Below are positions 16,233 through 22,819 of a DNA stretch of 64,000 bases, in pieces (within the stretch, counting starts at the first letter, position 1; every line of letters starts with the position of its first letter). A program made the position numbers and the translations under genes. Source of the stretch: an uncultured Ignavibacteria bacterium (GTDB taxonomy: Bacteria; Bacteroidota; Ignavibacteria; Kapaibacteriales; Kapaibacteriaceae); contig CAJAIA010000009.1 in NCBI GenBank assembly GCA_903939735.1, positions 1 through 64,000 of the forward strand, in the 5' to 3' direction. Below the pieces are notes generated by a model, which searched no databases, was not told the origin of the DNA, and saw only the letters and a program-made list of their open reading frames with translations.

Positions 16233-16324
16233 GGGCTCTGTAAGCCTTGGTTGACTGTGATGTTGTCACCTACATGTGAATGTGCGGGCCGTAGTTTAGG
16301 CGATCTATCGAAGAGGCCCATACT

Positions 16325-17914
16325 ATGCATCACGTACTCGTACTCACGTTGTTCGCTGTTCTTACGGCAACGAACATCATCGCAAGCGATGTCGGTATCT
16401 CTGTAACCCCAATTGCTGTCGAAGGCTTCGCAGGACGACAGTCATTTGCTGTGGGTAGACACGGATCCAAGGTTGTGCTGATTGGTGGTCGGATGGATGG
16501 CCTCCACCGACGCCAGCCGCCGCTTGCATTTAGCGCAGATGGCGAACCGCAGTCGATCGTTGTCCTCGACCTAGAGCAGAAGAAGTCATGGTCTGCATCG
16601 GTCGCTGGGCTTTCAGGTGATGTACTGGATCAGTGGACGTCGACCAATGCCTGTTTCGTTCAGGTCGATTCGCTTCTGTATATCATCGGTGGATACGGCA
16701 TAGCATCATCTGGCGCAGGTCATCGCACGCATCCCGTGTGGAGTAGCGTCAATGTCCAGCGCCTCATTGAAGCCGTTGTTGCTGGTCGACCGTACGCGCA
16801 ACTCATCAAGCATGGCACTGGCGATGCGTTCGCAATCACCGGCGGACGTGCTGGTTTTTTTGGTGATACGATTATCACTGTAGGCGGACACCGCTTCGAT
16901 GGACGCTATAACCCGATGGGTGGCTCGTCGTTCACACAAGCATACACAAATGCAGTGCGACGGTTCATCGTCACAGGTGGACGTCAGTTGTCGTTCCTCA
17001 ACGAGTCTGTAGACCCACTTCACTTGCACCGACGCGACTTCAACGTCGTGCCACAGATGTTCCCAGACGGCACGCACGGTTACACCGCATTTTCAGGAGT
17101 ATTCCGCGTCGGCGTTGATCTACCGTTTCTTGATGCTGTATCCATCAAGCGTGATACCCATGCTGTTGTACCAGACTTCGAGCAGTACCTCGCGCACTAT
17201 CATTGTGGTACGGTTCCCGTCTTTGATATGCGAGATAGCTCGATGCACACGTTCTTTCTTGGTGGCATCGCGCAGTACCGTGCAAATGGTGCAGGCGCTC
17301 TTGAGCGTAATGACAGTGTTCCATTCGTCAACACGATATCACGTGTGAGTAGAACTCGCAATGGCGTCATGCGCGAGTATCGTCAAAACGAGACAATGCC
17401 CGGTTTGCTTGGTACGGGTGCGGAAGTAGTGCTACGCGAGCAACCCTCATTGACACGAAACGAGATCCTAACCGTCAACGCGAGCGATCTCACGAACAAT
17501 GCGGTAATTGGTTGGATGATTGGAGGTATTCGTAGTACTGCGCCAAACATCTTTTGGGTGAATGACGGTACGCAGAGCGAAGCCAGCACGTTTGTGGCAG
17601 AGCTGCGTCTGACGTCTACTGCAACATCAGTGTTCATTGCGCCATCAGATTCACAGCGCAACGTACCACCCGGTATCACAACACGTATCGATCAGCATCA
17701 GCTTACGGTGATCGTTTCTGACATCTCAGACGAGGTTGAGATCGGTCTTTTCGACCTCAACGGTCGATACGTCGATCTCGGCTGCACCACTTCTGTAGGG
17801 GGCTCGCAGGCAACAATGACTTGCTCGATCGCTGATCTCCCATCTGGGGTGTACATCGCTGTCGTCATCGACGGTGAACGCACGGCTTCAACGTTGCTTT
17901 CGCTGCAACGGTAG
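16325..17914 (+). CDS. Secreted kelch-like propeller protein with T9SS sorting domain
   Basis: A 529-residue secreted protein. After a signal peptide (about 1-20), repeated 'VVLIGGRMDG', 'LLYIIGGYG', 'TIITVGGHRFDG' and 'IGWMIGGIRS' stretches mark a kelch-type beta-propeller with GG-containing blades (about 25-430). The end ('GLFDLNGRYVDLG', 'IADLPSGVYIAVVIDG') is a type A T9SS sorting domain, though its leading strand lacks the usual PNP. No enzyme motif is evident, so a structural or binding role on the cell surface is most likely. The leader holds TAGTTTAG (one mismatch from TAnnTTTG) about 30 bases upstream. Its stop lies 6 bases from that of convergent higA. Confidence 0.75.
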   Translation: MHHVLVLTLFAVLTATNIIASDVGISVTPIAVEGFAGRQSFAVGRHGSKVVLIGGRMDGLHRRQPPLAFSADGEPQSIVVLDLEQKKSWSASVAGLSGDVLDQWTSTNACFVQVDSLLYIIGGYGIASSGAGHRTHPVWSSVNVQRLIEAVVAGRPYAQLIKHGTGDAFAITGGRAGFFGDTIITVGGHRFDGRYNPMGGSSFTQAYTNAVRRFIVTGGRQLSFLNESVDPLHLHRRDFNVVPQMFPDGTHGYTAFSGVFRVGVDLPFLDAVSIKRDTHAVVPDFEQYLAHYHCGTVPVFDMRDSSMHTFFLGGIAQYRANGAGALERNDSVPFVNTISRVSRTRNGVMREYRQNETMPGLLGTGAEVVLREQPSLTRNEILTVNASDLTNNAVIGWMIGGIRSTAPNIFWVNDGTQSEASTFVAELRLTSTATSVFIAPSDSQRNVPPGITTRIDQHQLTVIVSDISDEVEIGLFDLNGRYVDLGCTTSVGGSQATMTCSIADLPSGVYIAVVIDGERTASTLLSLQR

Positions 17915-17920
17915 TGGCTG

Positions 17921-18193
17921 TTACGCCGCTCGGTTAAGCTTCTGCTCTGCCTCGTATAGGTCGAACGAAATCTGGAGATTCATCCAGAACTCAGGTGTTG
18001 TACCGAGTTCACGAGCAAAGAGAATTGCCGTCTCCGCGGTTACACCGCGTTTTCCGCGGATGATCGTGTTGATACGCTGTATAGGTACTGCGAGACGCTC
18101 AGCGAACTCAACCTGCGTCATGTTCATAGGCTCGAGAATCTCAGTGAGGAGAACTTCACCGGGATGCACGGGGCGTCGATGTGCAGGAGTCAT
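17921..18193 (-). CDS. higA: HigA-type antitoxin, orphan
   Basis: A 90-residue XRE/lambda-repressor-like DNA-binding protein: 'HPGEVLLTEILEPMNMTQ' then the HTH 'FAERLAVPIQRINTIIRGKR' and the closing 'ARELGTTPEFWMNLQ' are diagnostic of HigA antitoxins. Normally a RelE-fold HigB toxin gene lies immediately upstream. Here the upstream gene, only 5 bases away, is a serine hydrolase and no HigB-like frame is present, so this antitoxin is solitary. It may have become a stand-alone regulator or the toxin may have been lost. An AAGG site in the end of the hydrolase gene serves as its ribosome-binding site. Confidence 0.88.
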   Translation of the reverse strand: MTPAHRRPVHPGEVLLTEILEPMNMTQVEFAERLAVPIQRINTIIRGKRGVTAETAILFARELGTTPEFWMNLQISFDLYEAEQKLNRAA

Positions 18194-18198
18194 GGGAG

Positions 18199-19479
18199 TT
18201 ACCTTCGATGGATTTCGCGAATACCAAGTATGCGATGTCCCAGTATCTGCACTGTGCGACGTCGGTCGTTAGCAGCGACACAAACATACATTCCGGGTTT
18301 CAGATCACGAAGTGCCTCTTCGGACATCACTGTTGCGATGTACGCACCTGTGATATCATACACACGAGCAGGGTAGGTAAACGCACTCCCTGTATCAGCT
18401 GACTCCTGCACGGATGTAATGTGCGATGCGAGCACGCGCACGATGGTGTCAGCGATAGCGGCGGGTGTGCCTGGACCTTCGTTTGTGAGCACAACGACGC
18501 TTGCGCGTAGTGAGGGTATCCACAATGCTGAGGATGTGAACCCACGAATATCACCTCCGTGTCCGTACACAATCTGTCCGCCCACCATTAGGCGCCGAAC
18601 ACCGAGTCCGTAGGAATTGGGTGCTACGAAGGCAGTGAACTCAGACATCGACATCGTCGAAAGCACGCTGTCGGTAAACAGCCGTTGGTAGAACTCCGCA
18701 TACTGACGTGCCGTTGAGATCACGGCGCCAGCTGCCCATGCACCGCTCCACTCTGCCATCATTGGTGTTGCCGATGCATCACGTCCGCCTAACCAGCGAT
18801 GCGCAAGTTCGCCGACGAGTGAGTCCTGCGGGAAGAGCCGCATGGAATCAAGTTGTAAGGGTGTGGTGATGTATCGTGCGATAAGCTGGTGCAGTGGTAT
18901 GCCGCCAACGATCTCAGCGATCGTACCGGCAACAAGGTAGTTGGTATTGCAGTAGGCCCACGCAGTCCCAGGTGCAGTAGCAGCTGGTGGGATCATCGCG
19001 AACAGTTCGTCGCGTTTCCAGATACGTCGTGGGTTTGCGAGCACGGAGTCGCGATATGATTGCCCCCCTGCATACTCACCCAGTCCACTCGTGTGATTGA
19101 GGAGTTGTCGTATCGTAATCGTTGAATTGATGTATGGATGCGGCGGCAGATGCATCGACACTGCATCGTCGAGGTCGAGCAGACCTTCCTCTTGCATGCG
19201 GAGGAGGACGATGGAGGTTATTGTCTTCGTGTTGCTTCCGATAGCTAGGAGCATGTCCTCAGCTATGGGCTGGCCATCAAAGGATTCGCCAGCACATGCC
19301 GTGTAACGCTCACCGTTCCACACTACAGCTGCAGATACGCCTTGGATGTCGAGACGCTGTTGTACTGCAGATACTGCGTTCCGTAGCGTTCGTAACAACG
19401 CCTCGTCTGCGGCGTTGACGGGTGATGCTAGCCATGCTGTGAGCAGCATCAACGATAGAACTCGACAAGTCGTATGCAT
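18199..19479 (-). CDS. Serine hydrolase, class C beta-lactamase family, with T9SS-like tail
   Basis: A 426-residue exported hydrolase. Signal peptide ends 'SPVNA'. The penicillin-binding-protein-like active site is complete: 'SNTK' (SxxK), 'YCN' (YxN, in 'AWAYCNTNYLVAG') and 'HGG' (in 'VYGHGGDIRG'). The family includes D-aminopeptidases, esterases and carboxypeptidases, so the substrate is not fixed. The last 60 residues ('ARVYDITGAYIATV...LKPGMYVCVAANDRR') look like a T9SS sorting domain with an extra tail of about 10 residues. I start at 19479, where AGGG lies seven bases upstream; the ATG at 19494 is an alternative. higA follows after 5 bases. Confidence 0.82.
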   Translation of the reverse strand: MHTTCRVLSLMLLTAWLASPVNAADEALLRTLRNAVSAVQQRLDIQGVSAAVVWNGERYTACAGESFDGQPIAEDMLLAIGSNTKTITSIVLLRMQEEGLLDLDDAVSMHLPPHPYINSTITIRQLLNHTSGLGEYAGGQSYRDSVLANPRRIWKRDELFAMIPPAATAPGTAWAYCNTNYLVAGTIAEIVGGIPLHQLIARYITTPLQLDSMRLFPQDSLVGELAHRWLGGRDASATPMMAEWSGAWAAGAVISTARQYAEFYQRLFTDSVLSTMSMSEFTAFVAPNSYGLGVRRLMVGGQIVYGHGGDIRGFTSSALWIPSLRASVVVLTNEGPGTPAAIADTIVRVLASHITSVQESADTGSAFTYPARVYDITGAYIATVMSEEALRDLKPGMYVCVAANDRRRTVQILGHRILGIREIHRR

Positions 19480-19543
19480 AGGTACCCTGGTCATGTCCAG
19501 CTTAGAGCCCCCTGCACCACACAACGTTTAACCGACAGTATGT

Positions 19544-20788
19544 CTACGAAAGTCCGTAGAACTTCTTCGCGTTGGCGATCAGAATCTGGAACTCGTTCAC
19601 GTTCGGTGTGTCTGGGGTGGCACTCTCAACGAAGGTGCCGCCAATCACGCCAACATCATTTTTAGGAGTGTTGAGTAGGTGCTTCGGGAAGATATAGAAC
19701 GAGCGCTTCACATCTTGATTCGACTCTGTCTTACCCTTATCGAAGTACACCAAGATCATGTGTTGAAGATTCGCTGGTACCTGATCACGAAGCATGATGA
19801 GATGTCCTTGCACGGGCACCATCTCAGCATCGTTCTGAAGCTTAGCAGCGCCAAGGCCTGAGCAGTCAACAATGACATCTGTATCGAGTTCCGCATAGGA
19901 TGAGATCTTTTTCTCGACGAATGTCACGCGTGGACGTAGGTAGTCGGTAAGCGACTGCATAAACACGGCTGTATCGATGAAGATGCCATCGTCGTAGGAT
20001 ACCATCGGACGCTTGGTGCCGTTTCCGAAGTCGAGAATGACATCCTTTGCTGGCTGCATCACGACGCCGACGTAGGGCTCGAGACCAGAATCTTCTCGGC
20101 GCTCGAAGTATGCCGGGAGGATTGAGGCACCCGCAGGGAAATCCTTGTTCTTACCCTTTGCAACGGAAGCAAAGAAGCGATATGCATCAATCCCAATCTG
20201 ATTAATCAGCGCTTGCATGCCTGATTCGTTATCCATCGAAACGGGCGCGAGCAGACCGCCAGCATTATGGGATGTAAGGCGTTCAAACGAGGCAGCGACG
20301 ATCGTCACGTTGGTGTAGCCGCGCTGGAGGAGTTCATACGCGCTGAACAATCCCAAGCATCCACCACCTACGACCGTGATGGGCGTTGACATTTGCATCG
20401 CTGAGCCCTTGCGTGACCCAAGGAGCAGTCCAATGACATATGATGCGGATCCCGGACCAAGTGTCCAGCCGCTACCACCATGCCCGTAGTTGCACGCGAC
20501 GAGCTTCCCGTTCACTTCACCAACACTCAAGTTCGGTGCACCGCGACGCATCGGACGATAGCAGAAAATCCTCTCACCGAGGTACGCGGAGTCGAGTCGT
20601 GGCGGAGTGATCGAGCGAACCTCTGCTGTAGCATTCGACGAGCTGCCGAACCATTTCGAGCAACCACTTAACCAGAGAAATGAGGCTGATGCAGACAACG
20701 CGGTCACAAAATCACGTCGGTTCATCATTGATCGAGTAGTGTCGGATGATTGTTGATCTGCGTGTGTGTCATTCTGATCGAGCTTCAT
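19544..20788 (-). CDS. D-amino-acid-oxidase-like FAD oxidoreductase with circularly permuted domain order
   Basis: A 414-residue protein. Start at 20788 has a near-perfect AAAGGAG site. 'NRRDF' (23-27) and 'LSGC' (40-43) form a Tat-type lipoprotein signal. The DAO-family motifs appear in an unexpected order. The segment normally at the C-terminus ('CYRPMR' 76-81, carrying the substrate-binding Arg, and 'NYGHGGSG' 100-107) comes first; the Rossmann FAD motif 'GGGCLG' (141-146) and 'TSHNAGGLLAPV' come after; and the protein ends near 'VIGGTF' (381-386), which in D-amino-acid oxidase precedes the Arg segment. The fold should be intact but permuted. Deamination of an amino acid at the envelope is the inferred role. 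It is divergent from the TonB receptor. Confidence 0.85.
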   Translation of the reverse strand: MKLDQNDTHADQQSSDTTRSMMNRRDFVTALSASASFLWLSGCSKWFGSSSNATAEVRSITPPRLDSAYLGERIFCYRPMRRGAPNLSVGEVNGKLVACNYGHGGSGWTLGPGSASYVIGLLLGSRKGSAMQMSTPITVVGGGCLGLFSAYELLQRGYTNVTIVAASFERLTSHNAGGLLAPVSMDNESGMQALINQIGIDAYRFFASVAKGKNKDFPAGASILPAYFERREDSGLEPYVGVVMQPAKDVILDFGNGTKRPMVSYDDGIFIDTAVFMQSLTDYLRPRVTFVEKKISSYAELDTDVIVDCSGLGAAKLQNDAEMVPVQGHLIMLRDQVPANLQHMILVYFDKGKTESNQDVKRSFYIFPKHLLNTPKNDVGVIGGTFVESATPDTPNVNEFQILIANAKKFYGLS

Positions 20789-20894
20789 TGTGGTCTCCTT
20801 TGTACGCGATAATACGTATGGAATGCCACATGCGATCGCAGCAAGAAGAGAAGGAAGAGAAGAACGCCCTGCTTCGCTGAAGTGTGGAAACGAG

Positions 20895-20902
20895 TAGTTT
20901 TG
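20895..20902 (+). promoter_or_regulatory. TAnnTTTG-type -7 element for TonB receptor gene
   Basis: TAGTTTTG matches the Bacteroidota -7 consensus, 42 bases before the TTG start at 20945. A TTC, rather than TTG, sits at the expected -33 spacing. Confidence 0.4.
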
Positions 20903-20944
20903 CACCGGTAAAAAAACATCAGCACACACACAACGGAGTCAGAG

Positions 20945-22819
20945 TTGGTACAATGGGGTTTGTCGCTCATTACGAGCACAATTGTGGTGGGTTCCTTTTT
21001 TGTACCAAGCACTGCAATGCACGCATCTCTCGATGCACTTCCATTGCAACCAGATTCCACACGGCGAGACACAGCCGTGTATCAACTCGCTCCGGTTACA
21101 GTGATATCAAGCATCTCGCGCATGGATCCAGTGCATGCGCCATTCAGTCTTGCTGTGATTCGAGCTGAGGACATTCAAGCGCAACCGATTCGCGCAGTGA
21201 GTGATGTGCTCGCATATGTTCCTGGCGTAGATCTGCGTCAGCGCGGACCGCTAGGCGTGCAGAGCGACATTGCGATTCGTGGTGGAACATTTGAGCAGAC
21301 CGCGATCATGATCGATGGACTGCGCCTCAATGATGTCCAAACCGGACACAATACGTTTAGCATTCCGTTCCTTCCGACTGACATTGAGCGCATCGAAGTG
21401 GTCAAGGGTGGCGCAGCGCGCGCACTGGGCGCTGGCGCGATGGACGGAGCAGTGAACATCGTACTCAAGCAGCCAACCGCCAAGCCATCGCTTCAGGTAT
21501 CCCTGATGGGCGGCGACGCATCATATCGCGAGGCACGCGTGTCTGCATCGATCGGCAGCGAGACGTTGACGCACCGAGTGAGCGCGCAGATCATGGACCA
21601 TGCTGGATGGGCTCCATCGACAGACGTGTCGCTCCAGACAGCGATGTACCACGGTGTTCTGTCGCTCGGTGAGACACGCACAAGCGTCATTCTCGGCTTG
21701 AGCAATAAAGCGTTTGGAGCAAGCAGGTTCTATACGCCAAACTTCCCTGAGGCATGGGAGAAGATCACCACCTTCATCGGTGGTGCAACGTTTGATGCGC
21801 CCCTTTCAGAAACCATCGAGATGTCGGTGCGTGCACTTGCGCGCTTGAACGACGACGAGTTTCGTTTGAAGCGTGATGATCCGTCATTCTACACCAACAC
21901 GCACAGCACGCAGCAATACACGGTACAAGGACGACTCACGCGCCGTGATGAAGATCGCGCAACGTCATTGTTGGTCGATGCAGGGTCTGACGCTATCAAC
22001 AGCTCGAATCTCGGCAAGCATGATCGCGTGCGAGCGAGTGCAATCATCGAACACGTTGAGCGGTTCGGTAATCTGCGCGTAACGCTTGGTGGTGGTGTCG
22101 TAGCCTTTAGCGATCGACTTCCGTTGCCGACCGGTGGTGTGGATGCGTCGTACATGCTATCACAGGAAGCGTCATCAAGTGACATCGTCTTTGCTTCTGT
22201 GCAGACCAACGGACGCATTCCGACATATACGGATCTCTACTACAGCGATCCAGTAACGACAGGTAATCCGAACTTGGTGCTCGAGCGCGCAACAACAGCA
22301 GAAGTCGGGTATCGTCATGCAACGGCATCATCGATGCTCAACGTTGCGCTCTATGCGCGTGATGGACGGAACATGATCGACTACGTGTTTGACTCCGCGG
22401 GGAATTCAACGGCAGAGAACATCACTAATGTGGAGATTCGTGGTCTCGACGCATCATACAGCACAACGCTTGCGCTTGGTCCGCTCTCGTACTTACGCGT
22501 CGGCCTCATGTATCAAAGCGTGAAGGGATCTGCCACGGCCCGCACGTCATTCGTTGCTGACAATCTGCGCACGCAGGTAATCGTTGAAACGCGCTGGCAG
22601 TTGCCGTTCGACATTCAGGCATCGTACATCCCACGTCTCATCGAGCGTGTAACAACGCCAACATTGTACCTCGTGCACGATGTACGACTCATGCGAACGT
22701 TTGGGATCGTGACGATCACTGCAGAAGCAACGAATCTTACTGACCAACGCTACGTCGAAACCGGCTGGGTCGTCGTACCACCACGCTGGGCGCGTGTGGG
22801 TGCAGCGGTACAGCTGTGA
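20945..22819 (+). CDS. TonB-dependent outer-membrane receptor
   Basis: A 624-residue protein. A signal peptide (about 1-27, ends 'STAMHA') is followed by a plug domain (about 45-180) with 'DVLAYVPGVDLRQRG', 'IAIRGGTFEQTAIMIDGL' and 'IERIEVVKGGAARALGAGA', then a 22-strand barrel ending in 'WARVGAAVQL'. It is BtuB-like in size and transports a scarce nutrient such as a siderophore or cobalamin; the substrate is undetermined. The start is a TTG at 20945, chosen because ACGGAG lies about seven bases upstream and the signal peptide then has a proper length; the first in-frame ATG would delete the signal. It is divergent from the DAO-like gene. Confidence 0.9.
   Translation: MVQWGLSLITSTIVVGSFFVPSTAMHASLDALPLQPDSTRRDTAVYQLAPVTVISSISRMDPVHAPFSLAVIRAEDIQAQPIRAVSDVLAYVPGVDLRQRGPLGVQSDIAIRGGTFEQTAIMIDGLRLNDVQTGHNTFSIPFLPTDIERIEVVKGGAARALGAGAMDGAVNIVLKQPTAKPSLQVSLMGGDASYREARVSASIGSETLTHRVSAQIMDHAGWAPSTDVSLQTAMYHGVLSLGETRTSVILGLSNKAFGASRFYTPNFPEAWEKITTFIGGATFDAPLSETIEMSVRALARLNDDEFRLKRDDPSFYTNTHSTQQYTVQGRLTRRDEDRATSLLVDAGSDAINSSNLGKHDRVRASAIIEHVERFGNLRVTLGGGVVAFSDRLPLPTGGVDASYMLSQEASSSDIVFASVQTNGRIPTYTDLYYSDPVTTGNPNLVLERATTAEVGYRHATASSMLNVALYARDGRNMIDYVFDSAGNSTAENITNVEIRGLDASYSTTLALGPLSYLRVGLMYQSVKGSATARTSFVADNLRTQVIVETRWQLPFDIQASYIPRLIERVTTPTLYLVHDVRLMRTFGIVTITAEATNLTDQRYVETGWVVVPPRWARVGAAVQL

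Follow-up and report, generated by a model that had tools for sequence, protein, structure and literature searches.

A gene in the window (the whole stretch of DNA that we analysed, 64,000 nucleotides of a contig from an uncultured Ignavibacteria bacterium) is best explained in full as a natural circular permutant of the D-amino-acid-oxidase (DAO) fold, a reading to which we assign a probability of about 0.88. D-amino-acid oxidase (DAAO) is among the best studied flavoenzymes, and both its descriptions and its motif rules take a single order of parts for granted. In the window protein, the segment that canonically lies at the C-terminus and runs from xRPxR to NYGHGG, together with the helix after it, now forms the N-terminus; a short linker joins this displaced segment to the FAD-binding first strand, the new ends lie in the loop after the GGTF strand, and the product is predicted to fold like a DAO and to bind FAD.

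The gene and its motifs

The gene for this DAO-family flavoprotein (19544..20788, minus strand) was recognised from its open reading frame (ORF), translation, Pfam match and relatives with the same order. It runs as a single intact frame of 414 amino acids from an ATG at 20788 to a stop at 19544, and its long N-terminal start is backed by the metagenome-assembled genome (MAG) of a sister Candidatus Kapaibacterium (locus L004), which has a homologous start at the matching place. PF01266 (DAO) scored 80 bits on the protein and matched best over residues 137-411 (positions 2-297 of the 353 in the profile).

The original prediction had located four motifs, and translation showed each position to be correct: RPMR at residues 78-81 (20546..20557; seen by phmmer alignment with DAAO chains of the PDB), NYGHGG at residues 100-105 (20474..20491; by motif, with G105 aligned with G313 of human DAAO), the dinucleotide-binding motif GGGCLG at residues 141-146 (20351..20368; from the translated sequence) and GGTF at residues 383-386 (19631..19642, with the new C-terminus about 28 residues further on), all on the minus strand. 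On this minus-strand ORF, xRPxR and NYGHGG come ahead of GGGCLG, and the chain ends soon after GGTF, as had been claimed.

Residues 1-43 (20660..20788, minus strand) resemble a Tat-type lipoprotein signal, with NRRDF followed by LSGC that includes Cys43. By inspection, the stretch NRRDFVTALSASASFLWLSGC43 holds a twin-arginine motif, a hydrophobic stretch and a lipobox cysteine. This signal, which had also been predicted, is visible in the window sequence and recurs in relatives: signal and start are both kept in the sister L004, and similar signals occur in L044, L011, L037 and L042. The permuted members are mixed in this respect, some resembling Tat lipoproteins and others having no signal. 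The window protein itself would be exported in folded form by Tat and anchored as a lipoprotein.

The family profile is present once, in rotated order

We built a canonical profile from 20 canonical-order DAOs, with HNYGHGG at the C-terminus, taken from Bacteroidota genomes. On the window protein, profile positions 3-261 matched residues 132-410, the main block from the Rossmann FAD site to GGTF (19559..20395, minus strand), and positions 263-320 matched residues 63-122, the displaced block that corresponds to the canonical C-terminal block (20423..20602, minus strand). Since the profile matches twice in swapped positions, with zero overlap and a gap of one profile position, the protein contains one complete copy of the family profile, rotated; every block lies in one frame and only the order has changed, in agreement with the earlier claim. 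The gap between both matches, residues 123-131 (20396..20422, minus strand), is the junction at which the old C-terminus meets the old N-terminus.

Scored separately against the canonical profile, the Rossmann-to-GGTF half reached 94 bits and residues 55-130 reached 31.9 bits (E 4.8e-12 for one comparison), compared to 2.5 bits for the best of 2000 shuffles of the latter segment. When the mature protein was rotated by every possible amount and scored with the same profile, the best single match was 126.7 bits with the cut near residue 129, compared to 94.9 bits unrotated. A phmmer comparison with human DAAO from the PDB, unprompted, also returned swapped pieces, with query residues 131-348 on chain residues 21-240 and 65-131 on 294-365, the second piece being weak for the window protein alone. 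For a rhizobial relative compared with human D-aspartate oxidase (DASPO; 4e-24 in all), both pieces were significant and likewise swapped (25-72 on 283-334; 81-319 on 11-256). Rotation of the window protein brought no score gain in phmmer against the PDB (36.4 vs 38.0 bits unrotated): mid-protein, the match of a single sequence is too weak for the pieces to be joined, and the profile comparison is the informative test.

The spacing from RPxR to YGHGG was 23 in 11 of 11 permuted rows; those canonical rows in which the motif could be located had 20-24. Between GHGG and the FAD motif lie 30-37 residues across permuted members. The eight permuted members that were aligned share R78, P79, R81, Y101-G105 and the FAD glycines without exception. 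By sequence comparison, a DAO fold with permuted sequence is therefore supported by the tiling of the profile, by recurrence of the order and by the residues kept at substrate positions.

Structure predictions

Scans of viral contigs, by protein/alignment and by DNA pattern, gave two usable distinct permuted proteins besides the sister (L040/L041 and L042). AlphaFold2 was accordingly run on alignments of four rows, made from the window protein and the proteins of the contig scans, and with so few distinct permuted proteins the models are of low confidence. The model of the window protein had a pLDDT of 39.8, and a Foldseek search with it gave no usable fold match. For the signal-less relative L040 the model reached a pLDDT of 51.0 and a pTM of 0.57, and its junction region (N-terminal strands, helix and first Rossmann strand) was among the better parts. 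In Foldseek, which searches by chain order, the top matches of L040 were human and pig DAAO (E 2.6e-8, TM about 0.37), covering only the part after the block. VIA-align, which also follows chain order, placed residue 82 onward of the L040 model on DAAO residue 1 onward, with a modest fit (Z 8-9; 160-200 residues aligned at an rmsd of 4.4-6.1).

Relatives that share the order

A search for homologues of equal order, which had been suggested as a further check, found them in several phyla, with the cut site at about the same place (L004, L044, L011, L034-L037, L039, L040 and L042). Within Bacteroidota, the order occurs in an intact copy in the sister MAG (91-93% identical), in a MAG of another family (G502/L044; 63% identical) and in another genome of the phylum (G236/L011). 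It is also found in Rhizobium ruizarguesonis, Bradyrhizobium elkanii, Niveispirillum cyanobacteriorum, Nonomuraea gerenzanensis and Kozakia baliensis, as well as on the IMG/VR contigs L040/L041 and L042. The annotated members are named 'FAD-dependent oxidoreductase', which bears out the expectation that the family would stand under a generic label.

The IMG/VR contigs L040/L041 and L042 each carry a phage terminase gene besides their permuted DAO, and L042 has portal and capsid-like genes in addition. The L042 copy of the DAO stops early, by frameshift or truncation. In Mesorhizobium onobrychidis (L038 3735-4798), the DAO is split in two ORFs, which together span the rhizobial protein and keep its order. 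These ORFs overlap by four bases near the FAD motif, which may reflect a frameshift or a two-part gene.

The permuted form is a rarity among Bacteroidota. Within the genus of the window genome, that genome and 1 of 10 others had it; the sister MAG was the only one of 60 relatives with a full-length match; the phylum sample held one further genome among 395, as judged by a match across the junction; and 2 of 295 genomes in the class of G236 had it, counting full-length, high-scoring matches. A scan of genome contigs with the window protein returned the sister MAG as its only find, and the spread beyond Bacteroidota is consequently documented by plasmid records and IMG/VR contigs.

Substrate-binding residues and gene neighbourhoods

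Equivalents of the DAAO substrate-binding residues are present in the window protein by alignment, namely R78, Y365 in FYIFPK (19694..19696, minus strand; an equivalent Tyr aligns in the rhizobial member with human DASPO) and G105. We take their counterparts in human DAAO to be R283 (the arginine of the substrate carboxylate), Y228 (the carboxylate-binding tyrosine) and G313. In DAAO, this Arg and Tyr hold the substrate carboxylate and the Gly contacts the amino group (PMC6697736). The permuted enzyme may thus carry out an FAD-dependent oxidation that yields the imino/2-oxo acid. Its substrate would be an amino acid (probably a D-amino or imino acid), and oxygen or a respiratory carrier would take up the electrons.

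The neighbours of the permuted gene bear on this chemistry. In Rhizobium, Bradyrhizobium, Mesorhizobium and Nonomuraea (two phyla), a TPP enzyme resembling 2-oxoacid decarboxylases lies directly downstream, so that the set of permuted DAO and TPP enzyme is kept across Alphaproteobacteria and Actinomycetota. The three TPP enzymes tested were nearest to indolepyruvate/phenylpyruvate decarboxylase, at scores below the NCBIfam cutoffs. An FAD-binding oxidoreductase precedes the permuted DAO in Rhizobium (BBE-type) and Bradyrhizobium. The stretches L036 4470-8696, L035 4357-8684 and L034 4956-7709 hold the permuted DAO and the decarboxylase-like TPP enzyme, and in the rhizobia the oxidoreductase as well. 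In G236 (L091 5742-7554), a secreted-looking gene of the RidA/L-PSP family, with a signal peptide, is divergent from the exported permuted DAO, as a single case. Rid proteins are reported to act as imine hydrolases and to accelerate a D-arginine dehydrogenase (PMC5619798). In Kozakia, also a single case, a cytochrome c gene follows the permuted DAO, which suggests a dehydrogenase there. The TPP enzyme, RidA-family and cytochrome c neighbours fit amino acid oxidation.

A protein of this fold could nevertheless have drifted from DAAO function towards a substrate other than free D-amino acids, such as an opine, amine or hydroxy acid. Enzymes of the DAO superfamily accept diverse substrates, an insertion precedes the FYIFPK strand in the window subgroup, and L011, L037 and Kozakia do not conserve the Tyr at the position of Y365. 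On the other hand, R78 and G105 are invariant in permuted members, the window and rhizobial/actinobacterial subgroups retain the Tyr, and the TPP decarboxylase and RidA neighbours suit an amino acid substrate. We consider such drift a serious possibility, somewhat against the odds; it touches the substrate and not the permutation.

Beside the window gene, across a gap of 19 bp, lies a PF00144 serine hydrolase of the beta-lactamase/D-aminopeptidase superfamily (18199..19524, minus strand; Pfam 173.7 bits; best NCBIfam match D-aminopeptidase with 83 bits, below the cutoff of 443), which adjoins the DAO in the sister MAG too. In the genome G005, the matching site (L103, G005:C3 4875-5236 vs window 19368-21064) has flanks 90-96% identical and no DAO gene between the PF00144 hydrolase, located at the same site, and the TonB receptor. 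The window DAO is therefore an accessory gene gained or lost there, and the link between hydrolase and DAO is weak. PF00144 is moreover a very common family, and a D-aminopeptidase/D-amino-acid oxidase pair acting as a functional operon was downgraded on both grounds; a partnership of the hydrolase with the DAO is possible but unproven. Two other window ORFs are missing from the G005 counterpart: one of 529 amino acids with no Pfam match (16235-18210) and a small HTH antitoxin-like ORF (17921-18193, minus strand). The TonB-dependent receptor of the window (20945-22819) is divergent from the DAO, and a TonB receptor is found near the permuted DAO of Kozakia too.

Origin of the permutation

In a tree of the full rotated sequences, the permuted proteins formed one side of a branch (80/86, 82% of bootstraps). 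They were also grouped in a tree of the Rossmann half only, whose order is equal in permuted and canonical forms (85/83, 87% of bootstraps). A single origin of the permutation is favoured by these sequence comparisons, though not proven. Probably the gene was permuted a single time, through a tandem duplication whose copies fused and were then trimmed, a route that is not separable from fission and refusion, and the permuted gene then probably spread by horizontal transfer.

Alternatively, the window subgroup (window, L004 and L044) could have undergone a permutation of its own, separate from that of the alphaproteobacterial/actinobacterial group, with the same permissive site used twice. This subgroup stands on a long branch of about 3.5 changes per column that separates it from the other permuted proteins, the bootstrap support for one group is only 80-87%, and the Rossmann half of the window protein fits the canonical profile better (97 bits) than one built from the other permuted proteins (67 bits). 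Against this, the cut site and the RPxR-YGHGG spacing are common to both groups, Tat-lipoprotein signals are alike in two subgroups, and one group was recovered without the displaced columns. We regard independent events as unlikely.

The preference of the two window halves for different profiles, canonical for the Rossmann half and permuted for the C-block, would also fit a fusion of two partial paralogues, with an N-terminal block from a different DAO gene, or one serving another role, and with the canonical C-terminal segment lost. This score difference may, however, reflect profile size (8 vs 19 sequences). Such a fusion had been named as an outcome that would overturn the permutation, and our check gave it no support: the halves tile one profile with no overlap or redundancy and a gap of one position, and the permuted proteins stay together in a tree drawn from the Rossmann half only. 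The substrate arginine of DAAO and the NYGHGG part of its active site both lie in the C-terminal block, and a DAO minus this block would lose them. We judge a paralogue fusion very improbable. A pseudogene, frameshift or assembly artefact, conceivable since metagenome-assembled genomes are prone to misjoins and the relatives in L042 and L038 are broken or split, is refuted by the intact window frame, by intact copies in independent MAGs and by recurrence of the order in annotated genera and IMG/VR contigs.

Significance and comparison with known systems

No published account of a permutation in DAO or its relatives was found among 5.39 million open papers; as far as the literature searched shows, the permuted family is undescribed, absence there being no proof. 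A tentative broader reading, which as a whole we think rather unlikely, is that an entire undescribed DAO branch was permuted once, at a permissive loop, and that its chemistry would be extracytoplasmic in some lineages (Tat lipoproteins, perhaps with electrons passed to cytochrome c), while in others the set of FAD oxidase, permuted DAO and 2-oxoacid decarboxylase would form an amino-acid-to-aldehyde pathway.

The presence of the permutant across several phyla suggests that the loop after GGTF can take new chain ends without loss of the DAO fold, and the permutation makes clear why annotation by family tools falls mainly on the C-terminal two thirds. A natural permutant is a ready scaffold for engineering DAAO biosensors and fusions, and the family points to a set of exported amino-acid oxidoreductases, and to a conserved gene cluster, as subjects for study.

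Among systems already characterised, the respiratory D-amino acid dehydrogenase DadA is a possible analogy, as its electrons go to the respiratory chain; the window protein is not a DadA by NCBIfam NF001933 (weak match, 19.1 bits vs a cutoff of 383). Nor is it the glycine oxidase ThiO by TIGR02352, which matched the FAD-binding part weakly and below its cutoff (48.9 vs 250.8 bits); the order in ThiO is canonical. The canonical DAOs of Bacteroidota (L005-L033) provide the closest profile and have the HNYGHGG block in common with the permuted form, but carry it at the C-terminus of an ORF that starts at or close before the FAD motif. DAAO and DASPO (PF01266; human DAAO 2du8/8hy5, human DASPO 6rkf and Rasamsonia DAAO 7ct4) are likewise among the closest known systems. 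Like them, the permuted form has the GxGxxG Rossmann motif, the substrate Arg and Tyr, NYGHGG and one full copy of the profile. Unlike them, it has a Tat-lipoprotein signal in several members and is bacterial-only in this sample, and its N-to-C order, in contrast to that of human, pig and fungal DAAO, is rotated: about 65 residues that canonically close the chain stand at the front. Judged from its sequence, the window protein is homologous to DAAO and probably works alike; since its parts depart from the canonical order, we file it as a permuted variant of D-amino-acid oxidase.
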